Assembly (NCBI RefSeq): GCF_020832045.1
Contig: NZ_JAFIFK010000006.1
Location: 62,001 to 126,000, forward strand
Source: Halomonas sp.
GTDB taxonomy: Bacteria > Pseudomonadota > Gammaproteobacteria > Pseudomonadales > Halomonadaceae
Reading direction: 5' to 3'
DNA length: 64,000 bases
The translations under genes and the position numbers were made by a program. Below the pieces are notes generated by a model. That model did no database searches. It was not told where the DNA came from and saw only the letters and a list, made by a program, of their open reading frames with translations. Position 1 is the first letter of the stretch, and each line of letters begins with the position of its first letter. Of this stretch, positions 6,349 through 57,496 are shown piece after piece.

Positions 6349-6431
6349 ACTGTCAGTCATGGACACCGATCCCTGTCGCTAGCGCACGGCGACAGGGAGA
6401 AAACGAGCTAGCTGACGCAAAGGAGGCGAAC

Positions 6432-6554
6432 ATGGCACCGCTGAAGGAGTATCACGACGAAAGTGGCCCCATTTGGTTGCTGGCCCTGGTAGCGGTCTTG
6501 GTGGTGAACCTGCTGCCCCTGATCATTGGCGTGGCGCGAGCCGTACTGGCCTGA
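6432..6554 (+). CDS. 40-residue single-pass membrane miniprotein
   Basis: This small ORF has a near-perfect ribosome binding site (AAAGGAGG, 5 bases before ATG). It encodes a charged N-terminus (KEYHDESG, residues 5-12), one hydrophobic segment of about 22 residues from IWLLALVAVLVVN onward, and a short ARAVLA tail. I do not recognise a family. It sits 83 bases after folM and 61 bases before the aromatic leader peptide. The strong SD and the ideal membrane segment argue for expression. A direct role in the aroG leader is not evident. Confidence 0.6.
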   Translation: MAPLKEYHDESGPIWLLALVAVLVVNLLPLIIGVARAVLA

Positions 6555-6562
6555 AGCCGGGC

Positions 6563-6591
6563 TTGCCAAGCTTGTCGCGATGCGGCACGAT
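6563..6591 (+). promoter_or_regulatory. Candidate aroG leader promoter
   Basis: TTGCCA (6563-6568, five of six matches to the -35 consensus) is separated by 17 bases from CACGAT (6586-6591, three of six for the -10). Transcription would begin near 6598, giving a short untranslated lead before leader peptide 1, as in known attenuators. The -10 is weak. Confidence 0.35.
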
Positions 6592-6615
6592 GATCCGAGA
6601 ATCCTGGAGACAACC

Positions 6616-6747
6616 ATGACCCCGAGCCTTGATACAACCAGACCCGCTCTCGACTGCACCCCCGGTGCGGTGCGGTCGCGTGGTTTCGGTTTCGGCGGTC
6701 AGTATTGGTACTGGTTTAGCGCCGGTGTGCCGGCGGCCGGGTCCTGA
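6616..6747 (+). CDS. Aromatic leader peptide 1 of the aroG attenuator
   Basis: This 43-codon ORF has an SD (GGAGA, 6606-6610). Its N-terminal half is nondescript, then come two Phe codons (24 and 26) and an unbroken run YWYWF at codons 30-34 (6703-6717), ending at TGA 6745-6747. It lies immediately before a strong intrinsic terminator with a competing antiterminator. The design matches classical ribosome-mediated attenuation, with the ribosome sensing charged tRNA-Tyr, -Trp and -Phe. The gene it controls, a DAHP synthase, makes the precursor of exactly these three amino acids. The peptide itself probably has no function. A second, downstream ORF repeats the theme. Confidence 0.82.
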   Translation: MTPSLDTTRPALDCTPGAVRSRGFGFGGQYWYWFSAGVPAAGS

Positions 6748-6786
6748 ATCGGACGCAGCTGCTAGGGCACACCCAACCGGGTTGCC
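6724..6786 (+). promoter_or_regulatory. Attenuator pause stem and antiterminator arm
   Basis: Segment 1 GGTGTGCC (6724-6731) pairs perfectly with segment 2 GGCACACC (6766-6773). Segment 2 continues into CGGGTTGCC (6778-6786), which is the exact complement of GGCAACCCG (6808-6816), spanning the loop and both inner ends of the terminator stem. A ribosome stalled on codons 30-34 would cover segment 1 and favour the antiterminator. Confidence 0.75.
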
Positions 6787-6794
6787 TTCCTTCT

Positions 6795-6832
6795 AAAACC
6801 CCTGGTCGGCAACCCGACCGGGGGTTTTACAT
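6795..6832 (+). terminator. aroG attenuator terminator
   Basis: A 15-bp stem (AAAACCCCTGGTCGG / CCGACCGGGGGTTTT, one G-U pair) with the tetraloop CAAC is followed by a T-rich tail. It lies 47 bases after leader peptide 1 stops and 212 bases before aroG, so it would end transcription before the structural gene when aromatic tRNAs are charged. Confidence 0.88.
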
Positions 6833-6872
6833 TTGTTAGGCCCCCATAAAAGATCAACTGAGGAGACGCACC

Positions 6873-7037
6873 ATGACCGCATGCAGCGCCACTTTCGCCG
6901 CCCGCTCTCGCCACGACTATTATGGCTGGGGCTATGGCTGGCGATTTAGCGCCACGCGGTCGGCCCAGTGCGCCACCTCCGGCCGTGAGATGACCGGTGG
7001 CAAGACGACACGATGTATGCCGAACTCACGGAGTTGA
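6873..7037 (+). CDS. Aromatic leader peptide 2, upstream of aroG
   Basis: This 54-codon ORF has a good SD (AGGAG 6861-6865, 7 bases before ATG). Aromatic codons cluster at 16-25 (YYGWGYGWRF, 6918-6947), and the FSA that follows is shared with leader peptide 1, suggesting duplication. The TGA at 7035-7037 is 5 bases before the aroG ATG at 7043 and overlaps its SD region, so ribosomes leaving this ORF could load on aroG. Two crossing pairings are possible downstream of the codon run: 6972-6977 with 6996-7001, and 6983-6989 with 7025-7031; the latter covers the aroG SD. No T run follows, so the inferred control is at translation. Confidence 0.68.
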   Translation: MTACSATFAARSRHDYYGWGYGWRFSATRSAQCATSGREMTGGKTTRCMPNSRS

Positions 7038-7042
7038 CGATC

Positions 7043-8122
7043 ATGAACGCCCCCGCATCCCTCGCTGAACGCCTAGCCAACGGCCATTCCAATATCATCG
7101 CCGGTCCGAGTCGGGCTCACAGGACCCTGCCGACCCCCGCAGAGCTGCGGCACCGACTGCCGGTATCACGTCCGGTCGCCGAGCGCCTCGCGGCCCAGCG
7201 TCGCGCCATACAGGACATTATTGCCGGTCGCGACGACCGCATGCTGGTCGTGGTAGGCCCCTGTTCGATACATGACCCCCTGGCGGCACTGGAGTATGCC
7301 CAGCGTCTGGCCGAGCTTGCCCCCCGGCTTTCCGACCGCCTGCTGCCGGTAATGCGGGTCTATGTGGAGAAGCCGCGCACCACGGTGGGGTGGAAGGGAC
7401 TGGCCTACGATCCCGATCTGGACGGTAGCGGCGATATGGCGCGTGGTCTGCATCTCGCGCGTCACATGATGCATGAGATCGCCGCGCTGGGCCTGCCGGT
7501 GGCCACCGAAGTCCTGCAGCCGATGCTGGCCAGCTACCTCGACGATCTGCTGGCCTGGGTCGCCATTGGTGCCCGTACCACCGAGTCGCAGCTGCATCGC
7601 GAGCTGGCCAGCGGCCTAGAGGCGGCCGTGGGCTTCAAGAACGGTACGAGTGGCGACGTGGGCGTGGCCGTGGATGCCATACGTGCCGCTGCACACCCGC
7701 ATCAGCATTTCGGCCTCGATGAGCAGGGCCGGCCCGCGCTGTGCGAAACGCCGGGCAATGCCCACACCCATGTGGTGCTGCGTGGCGGTCACCATGGTCC
7801 CAACTACGATAGCCGCTCGGTCGGGGAGGCCCGTCGTGCGCTGGAGCAGGCGGGGCTTGCGGCAAGGCTGATGGTCGACTGCAGTCATGCCAACGCGCGC
7901 AAGGACCATCGTCGCCAAGCCGAGGTGCTGCGCGACGTGTTGGTTCAGCGAGCAGCGGGTGAGACATCGCTCATGGGACTGATGCTGGAGAGCCACCTCG
8001 AGGAGGGCAAGCAGCCGCTTACCCCCGGCGCGTTGCGCTATGGTATCTCCGTCACCGACCCCTGCCTGGGCTGGCAGGCCACCGAGGCCTTGCTGCTGGA
8101 GGCGGCCGAGCGGCTACGTTGA
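7043..8122 (+). CDS. aroG: 3-deoxy-7-phosphoheptulonate (DAHP) synthase, type I
   Basis: The enzyme joins phosphoenolpyruvate and erythrose 4-phosphate, the first step of the shikimate pathway. The 359 residues match the AroF/AroG/AroH class (about 350). Signatures are VVVGPCSIHDP (metal Cys), the KPRTTVGWKGL PEP loop, GARTTESQ, GFKNGT, and metal ligands in VVLRGG and DCSHAN with the late SVTDPCLGW. The ATG at 7043 has a GGAG SD at 7030-7033; an in-frame ATG at 7013 has no SD and lies inside leader peptide 2. Which aromatic amino acid inhibits it cannot be read safely, so the symbol is by class. Two leader peptides precede it. Confidence 0.93.
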   Translation: MNAPASLAERLANGHSNIIAGPSRAHRTLPTPAELRHRLPVSRPVAERLAAQRRAIQDIIAGRDDRMLVVVGPCSIHDPLAALEYAQRLAELAPRLSDRLLPVMRVYVEKPRTTVGWKGLAYDPDLDGSGDMARGLHLARHMMHEIAALGLPVATEVLQPMLASYLDDLLAWVAIGARTTESQLHRELASGLEAAVGFKNGTSGDVGVAVDAIRAAAHPHQHFGLDEQGRPALCETPGNAHTHVVLRGGHHGPNYDSRSVGEARRALEQAGLAARLMVDCSHANARKDHRRQAEVLRDVLVQRAAGETSLMGLMLESHLEEGKQPLTPGALRYGISVTDPCLGWQATEALLLEAAERLR

Positions 8123-57112: not shown

Positions 57113-57205
57113 GGAGAGGTGGCCGAGTGGCTGAAGGCGCTCCCCTGCTAAGGGAGTATGGGGTTTATAGCCCCATCGAGGGTTCGAATCCCTCCCTCTC
57201 CGCCA
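57113..57205 (+). tRNA. tRNA-Ser (anticodon GCU)
   Basis: A 93-nt class II tRNA with acceptor stem GGAGAGG/CCTCTCC, D arm, anticodon loop CTGCTAA (GCU, reads AGC/AGU), a long variable arm (TATGGGG...CCCCATC), T loop TTCGAAT and encoded CCA (57203-57205). Confidence 0.97.
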
Positions 57206-57238
57206 TGCGACACGTAGCCGTTGTGCGAAATGTGATAT

Positions 57239-57315
57239 GCGCCCGTAGCTCAGCTGGATAGAGTACCTGACTACGAATCAGGTGGTCGGAGGTTCGAATC
57301 CTCCCGGGCGCGCCA
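57239..57315 (+). tRNA. tRNA-Arg (anticodon ACG), copy 1
   Basis: A 77-nt tRNA with acceptor GCGCCCG/CGGGCGC, anticodon loop CTACGAA (ACG, read as ICG after editing), T loop TTCGAAT and encoded CCA. It is identical to copy 2, 104 bases downstream. Confidence 0.97.
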
Positions 57316-57419
57316 CGAAGCATGCTGAAGGATCATTTCGATCGTTGGGTCATGGCTCCGGGTGTCACCAAGTTCGATGCAGTGGTGTGAGTCAAAGCAG
57401 GATCCTGGATCTTGCATCA

Positions 57420-57496
57420 GCGCCCGTAGCTCAGCTGGATAGAGTACCTGACTACGAATCAGGTGGTCGGAGGTTCGAATCCTCCCGGGCGCGCCA
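57420..57496 (+). tRNA. tRNA-Arg (anticodon ACG), copy 2
   Basis: Base-for-base identical to copy 1, including the CCA end. Spacers differ, so it is a gene duplication of the tRNA unit. Together they read CGU/CGC/CGA, frequent Arg codons in this GC-rich DNA. Confidence 0.97.

Follow-up and report, generated by a model that had tools for sequence, protein, structure and literature searches.

The aroG-type gene for 3-deoxy-7-phosphoheptulonate (DAHP) synthase in the analysed window, a 64 kb stretch of DNA whose closest named relatives among the matches listed are Billgrantia and Halomonas, is preceded by two short ORFs in series. Both carry a run of aromatic codons; the first is followed by an intrinsic terminator and the second is not. 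This arrangement, which the first-pass annotation had put forward, suggests that the same aromatic shortage signal is read twice. Two crossing helices are conserved just downstream of the aromatic codons of the second leader, one of which would compete with a helix at the Shine-Dalgarno (SD) sequence of aroG in the lineage of the window. We propose that the two leaders are attenuators in series and that the second would be a stalling-dependent translational switch of aroG, a reading to which we give a probability slightly below one half (about 0.47).

Two serial aromatic leaders upstream of aroG

Profile search assigned the product of the gene at 7043-8122 (+ strand, as for all features below) to the AroFGH family of DAHP synthases, with 445.8 bits against TIGR00034 and 508.8 bits against NF009395, each above the curated cut-off, and with the narrower AroG and AroH models scoring below their own cut-offs. 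From 5' to 3', the region consists of leader 1, the intrinsic terminator, leader 2 and the aroG start codon ATG at 7043, with the aroG SD GGAG at 7030-7033. A scan of the six frames of the 64 kb for ORFs of 15-110 residues containing at least six Phe, Tyr or Trp in 10 residues found exactly two, namely leaders 1 and 2. Another small ORF (6432-6554), which has the ribosome site AAGGAGG and encodes a membrane-like peptide of 40 residues (MAPLKEYHDESGPIWLLALVAVLVVNLLPLIIGVARAVLA), sits between a dihydromonapterin reductase gene and leader 1; counterparts were seen upstream in eight of the 12 loci tried (L001, L005 and L082-L087). Three tandem tRNA genes are located at 57113-57493.

For comparison, upstream regions were taken from three sources: 80 named loci of aroG relatives (the best 80 among the matches listed), 30 loci drawn from a search across 151 genomes of the family, every one of which carries a relative of the gene, and 100 further stretches, three of them paralogues. 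The two resulting locus sets overlap in genomes, and 155 unique sequences remained after removal of duplicates.

Leader 1 (6616-6747) encodes 43 residues (...FGFGGQYWYWFSAGVPAAGS) and is recognised from the sequence and its relatives; the intrinsic terminator downstream (6794-6829) comprises 16 pairs and a T-rich tail. Transcription attenuators of the trp/phe type consist of a codon run, a leader stop and a terminator. Leader 1 is alike in all three, and shows both features that were tested, an aromatic leader ORF followed by an intrinsic terminator, whereas leader 2 differs in having no terminator. By analogy with known attenuators, leader 1 and its terminator would decide whether RNA polymerase gets to aroG. 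Among the relatives, the corresponding Y..W-F stretch occurs upstream in 151 of 155 loci, with TTT as its Phe codon in 150 of these 151, and a rule-based call placed a terminator-like site 5' of leader 2 in 126 of 153 loci. A loose leader 1 pattern matched 91 of 97 orthologue stretches, including some false matches such as L117.

The Rfam family RF00627, “Pseudomonas sRNA P15”, maps to the final part of leader 1 plus its terminator. The match in the window (6693-6824) reaches 34.6 bits and stays below the gathering threshold of 70 bits, and a search over 274 genomes of the class gave five matches, one of them above the cut-off. In Pseudomonas, RF00627 scored above the threshold in all 20 loci tried (L023-L044), each time at this position. 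The Rfam family P37 also matches at the leader 1 attenuator of the window, below its threshold. P15 is among the sRNAs detected by Livny et al., as listed in PMC2375449. It is catalogued as an sRNA, without leader 2; in our reading, the P15 RNA is instead the attenuated leader, left when the DAHP synthase attenuator aborts at its first stage, and the independent-sRNA annotation might have to be revised.

Leader 2 (6873-7037) encodes 54 residues behind its own SD, GAGGAG (6860-6865), and ends with a stop codon (7035-7037) five nucleotides before the aroG ATG. The aromatic run YYGWGYGWRF occupies codons 16-25 (6918-6947) and leads into the near-invariant TGG CGA TTT AGC (6939-6950). The ORF, its SD, the run and the stop are all found where the first-pass annotation had placed them, as are the Phe-Ser-Ala codons shared by the two leaders (TTT AGC GCC at 6715-6723 in leader 1 and at 6945-6953 in leader 2). 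Each of the 155 unique sequences has, 5' of the run and in its frame, an ATG with an SD-like motif, against 36.4 expected from shuffled upstream sequence; with strict SD motifs the numbers are 154 and 16.4, respectively. Arg is encoded by CGA in 154 of the unique sequences and Phe by TTT in all 155, in loci picked for the residues W-R-F irrespective of codon; the background shares in 11 genes of the window are 12.3% of Arg codons and 13.0% of Phe codons, respectively. Third positions hold 0.46 of the changes in the aromatic part of leader 2, a slight enrichment over the share of about 0.33 expected without coding constraint. In the tail past the helices this share is 0.35, so the tail peptide is hardly constrained.

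Beyond the W-R-F codons of leader 2, only one of 153 loci has a terminator-like site, and the terminator scan reports none at 6830-7042 of the window. As a classical transcription attenuator, leader 2 therefore has the ORF with pathway codons and lacks the intrinsic terminator; it most likely acts on aroG translation. A separate transcript for leader 2 is unlikely, with its ATG at a median of 41 nt past the last T-run in the 147 of 155 loci measured. A simple scan of 6400-7100 found no sigma-70-like site, which is weak evidence because none was found for leader 1 either. Programmed frameshifting into aroG was rejected, since the distance from the leader 2 stop to the aroG start takes all three frames (including -4, -1, 2, 3, 4, 5, 6 and 7); no canonical slippery heptamer was seen by eye, though helix S1 described below starts 7-9 nt past TTT.

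Non-conservation of the second ORF, which the first-pass annotation had named as evidence against its own proposal, was not seen. A W-R-F leader 2 with preceding aromatic residues is present in 105 of the 110 loci of the first set (all but L015, L016, L018, L022 and L100), and the second set, with 97 orthologue loci, yielded a W-R-F/Y leader 2 in 68 once two false matches (L145 and L150) were dropped. Another 27 loci of the second set gave no pattern match; at least two of these (L211 and L212) carry leader 2 by eye. In Salinicola-type loci the gene directly follows the terminator of leader 1, and leader 2 is absent. A wider look at 20 stretches for ORFs with five aromatic residues in 10 gave a mosaic picture: of four Pseudomonadaceae loci, three have both leaders (L219, L220 and L222) and one leader 1 only (L221); one further family has both leaders in L224, leader 1 only in L223, and no passing ORF in L225, where a YWFS stretch is seen by eye; another family has leader 1 only in four of four loci (L226-L229); and leader 1 is present in L238. 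Among more distant relatives or second copies, no aromatic leader was found in L230 and L232-L237, and L231 has one doubtful ORF. Likewise, no aromatic leader was seen at the four DAHP synthase paralogues inspected (L213, L214, L215 and L235). From its distribution in these sequences, leader 1 looks older and leader 2 like a later addition, without which some lineages manage. Leader 1-like ORFs or stretches with variant runs (for example FFWWFGYGFYFSQ, or GYWRWF by eye) were also observed before the gene without a recognised leader 2, at L223, L226-L229, L130, L137, L145 and L150.

The profile R1 has a single copy in its own genome, the studied site; over 274 genomes of the class it matched its own genome only, and over 145 genomes of the order it gave three matches, all in its own family. 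R1 is bound to sequence, uses strict filters and misses family members with replaced helices, so its absence elsewhere is weak evidence.

Crossing helices past the aromatic codons

Helix S1 pairs CGGTCGG (6957-6963, extending to 6955) with CCGGCCG (6979-6985, extending to 6987), and helix S2 pairs GCCACC (6972-6977) with GGTGGC (6996-7001), such that the two helices cross. Counted from TGG, S1 joins +18..+24 with +40..+46, and S2 joins +33..+38 with +57..+62. S2 had been noted by the first-pass annotation, and is indeed conserved, with compensatory changes in distant members; S1, which overlaps the SD helix, had been overlooked. Among the 155 sequences, the S1 3' arm starts at +40 in 117 of 117 strict matches, the S2 3' arm follows 17 nt past it in 115 of these 117, and at least five of the seven S1 pairs are formed at the expected places in 133 of 155.

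In the 122 unique helix-bearing sequences, with kinship ignored, 95.4% of the S1 cells are paired, against at most 91.7% in 1000 shuffles, and 31 cells are changed on both sides, against at most 13 in shuffles. For S2, 94.7% of the cells are paired (shuffles at most 92.2%) and 17 are double-changed (at most 10), again with kinship ignored; its 10 pair types lie within the shuffle range of up to 12. Some slid controls gave no fewer double-changed cells at much lower pairing, with 41 at 46% paired for S1 moved by +3, and 18 at 54% for S2 moved by -3. A formal covariation count on 34 aligned sequences found 98.2% paired, a value reached in none of 500 shuffles (kinship ignored), and six double-changed cells (0 of 500 shuffles), with nine cells at 50% paired when slid by +3.

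The most telling support for both helices comes from lineages in which the letters are replaced and the pairing is kept. In L202, L204 and L208-L212, S1 is rebuilt from other letters at the same offset with seven of seven pairs, accompanied by an S2 of six to seven pairs at shifted places. Both helices persist, their arms shifted, in the Cobetia-type loci L027 and L197, and L196 has them in a weaker form. On the Pseudomonas side, S1 and S2 are absent in 19 of 55 leaders examined; leaders of the P. aeruginosa/stutzeri type keep CGA-TTT without them.

Judged from the pairing pattern, S1 and S2 form a candidate H-type pseudoknot with loops of 8, 1 and 10 nt, and the data allow equally two helices used in turn. 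With a penalty of 9.6 kcal/mol, the energy model did not predict the pseudoknot as dominant, with a median probability of 0. The helices are conserved and their loops little conserved; because of the latter, a riboswitch is not favoured.

A proposed switch at the aroG start and its alternatives

Helix B pairs CCGTGAG (6983-6989) with CTCACGG (7025-7031), at the places given by the first-pass annotation, which took CTCACGG to cover the aroG SD; the overlap extends to the first two bases of GGAG. The 5' arm of helix B overlaps the S1 3' arm, and in its extended form S1 shares 6983-6987 with it, which makes the overlooked S1 the competitor for the bases of the SD helix. In 51 sequences with a near stop, the mean pairing energy of the S1 3' region with the SD region was -11.4 kcal/mol for own partners and -10.3 kcal/mol for swapped ones (0 of 2000 permutations, which ignore relatedness), and own pairing beat the swapped mean in 29 of the 51. 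By our own reading of the list, these comprise 16 of 19 Billgrantia/Halomonas sequences, where the exceptions are L005 (a tie), L095 and L097, versus 13 of 32 elsewhere. Within the Billgrantia/Halomonas group, the letters of helix B are replaced by complementary ones (GTAGCG:CGCTAC and GTGAGC:GCTCAC). These data support helix B as a feature of the window's lineage that is not general, being weak or absent outside this group.

Other partners for the SD region were tried in the same way. Pairing with the aromatic codons was dropped for want of a signal (W-R-F-S region, own -9.05 versus swapped -8.98, with 734 of 2000 permutations as good), and the S2 3' arm pairs with its own SD more weakly than with swapped ones (-8.3 versus -9.1). 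An anti-SD mimic, CTCCG:CGGAG, gave a weaker signal (19 of 2000 at least as good) and is changed in L003, L004 and L009.

Two layouts of the leader 2 stop were found. In 75 of the 100 unique Halomonadaceae sequences with an assigned aroG start, the stop overlaps this start or lies at most 12 nt before it. In 53 Pseudomonas-side sequences, including the gammaproteobacterium L070, aroG follows the stop after 15-50 nt, and after 39-50 nt in 48 of the 53. The distant-stop class (73 loci) has a strong hairpin past the stop, with a median of about -20 kcal/mol. The hairpin was seen to enclose or directly follow the stop, for example in L008, L010, L013, L024-L026 and L042. With the stop 15-50 nt upstream and the hairpin in between in the distant-stop class, the SD step of the window does not apply on the Pseudomonas side.

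In the proposed mechanism, the two serial attenuators would sense how much Tyr, Trp and Phe is available. At the first stage, leader 1 and its terminator would gate transcription into aroG. At the second, leader 2 would be translated, and with aromatics short the ribosome would stall on the aromatic codons up to TGG-CGA-TTT, leaving the RNA just downstream free to fold into S1, probably together with S2 as a pseudoknot. By the geometry, a stall anywhere up to TTT would leave S1 free or just touched, and a ribosome moving onward would melt it. In the window's lineage, the folded S1 would use up CCGTGAG, so that CTCACGG and the aroG ribosome site remain open and aroG is translated; S1 being the natural competitor of the SD helix, starvation would therefore open aroG. 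With plentiful aromatic aminoacyl-tRNAs, ribosomes would cross S1 and free CCGTGAG to pair with CTCACGG, and those finishing leader 2 would end on top of the aroG start, thereby reducing independent initiation. Distant-stop relatives (Pseudomonas and Chromohalobacter) keep the leader and often the helices, and must use a different step at the aroG start. More tentatively, the whole would be a two-stage cascade in which one shortage of aromatic aminoacyl-tRNAs is read at the terminator and then by a pseudoknot translation switch in leader 2, kept from Halomonas to Pseudomonas, with P15 as the aborted product of the first stage.

The idea of the annotation that stalling frees the SD fits this anatomy, and folding models give it no clear support. 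When ribosome masks were applied to the folds, the SD did not open consistently in response to a stall: in near-stop loci the modelled opening was 0.42 when free, 0.43 when stalled and 0.41 with the ribosome on S1. Imposing the pseudoknot left the SD more open than placing a ribosome on S1 did in 41 of 67 near-stop loci and in eight of 48 distant-stop loci.

A stop codon beside a start codon usually couples the translation of the two ORFs; complete translation of leader 2 would then promote that of aroG, an effect opposite in sign to the proposed switch. This positive coupling is the main rival, and we consider it unlikely. It holds that full translation of leader 2 opens the aroG ribosome site, with the terminating ribosome melting helix B (or the stop-SD hairpin where the stop is distant) and with the aromatic run tuning a gate or booster. 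The near-stop layout in three quarters of the Halomonadaceae sequences speaks for it, as does the distant-stop hairpin, whose own arms pair better than swapped ones (36 non-redundant loci; -20.3 versus -15.4, equalled in none of 2000 permutations). However, simple shuffles show this hairpin to be no more than moderately unusual (median z -1.6, with 20 of 73 loci below -2), the entry enzyme would be lowered when aromatics are scarce, contrary to normal feedback logic, and coupling gives no reason for S1 and S2 just past the aromatic codons.

Less probable still is an effect of leader 2 on transcription or mRNA stability, in which stalling would expose or hide a Rho or RNase site before aroG. 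The missing terminator past leader 2 is consistent with this, the Pseudomonas stretch from S2 to the leader 2 stop looks C/A-rich by eye, and Rho has been suggested for terminator-less cys leaders in Actinobacteria (PMC1262725); but a Rho site exposed by stalling would switch the gene off on starvation. Least probable is a mainly mechanical role read from the sequence pattern, in which the pseudoknot and CGA-TTT would set a programmed pause that synchronises ribosomes, with sensing via codon speed and a secondary SD helix: the constant offset from TGG to S1, its retention where the letters are replaced, and conserved helices around variable loops would all suit such a roadblock, but the P. aeruginosa/stutzeri-type leaders retain CGA-TTT and have neither helix.

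Comparison with known systems

If the stalling-dependent switch is correct, the entry enzyme of the shikimate pathway is gated twice by one signal, at two levels, in widespread genera, and a catalogued sRNA, P15, is reinterpreted. Some of these genera are of industrial use. Why an attenuator should be doubled would also become testable, for instance as a steeper response or a lower leak, and the lineages with both leaders, with leader 1 only, and with a helix-less leader 2 provide a natural set.

Among the open-literature matches listed, most subscription papers being outside this scope, we found no description of two leaders before this DAHP synthase gene. The accounts of uORFC-13-1 before aroF in Acholeplasma (PMC8632094) and of predicted motifs before aroF and aroH in Shewanella (PMC2659441) place a leader and an RNA motif, respectively, before DAHP synthase genes; these are single elements, and the passages describing them mention neither a second terminator-less leader nor crossing helices. 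ErmBL/ErmBL2 (PMC8274638) does have two leader peptides before one gene and translational control, but its stalling is induced by a drug and not by amino acid supply.

The nearest described designs that we found are the LEU element and the tandem attenuators of mgtCBR, and leader 2 is filed under neither. In mgtCBR of Salmonella (PMC3641672), two short ORFs also stand in series; both are described as acting on transcription, with ATP and proline as signals, whereas here both leaders carry aromatic codons and a terminator follows only the first. The LEU element upstream of leuA in Actinobacteria (PMC1262725) belongs to another gene, phylum and amino acid, and its base stem pairs the Leu codon run with the SD, a pairing for which the W-R-F-S and SD regions gave no signal here; the passages on it mention no second serial leader. 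It nevertheless shares with leader 2 an ORF rich in the amino acid of the pathway and the lack of an obvious terminator, and its pseudoknot, in which unpaired bases are not conserved, and its SD helix resemble the candidate pseudoknot and helix B.
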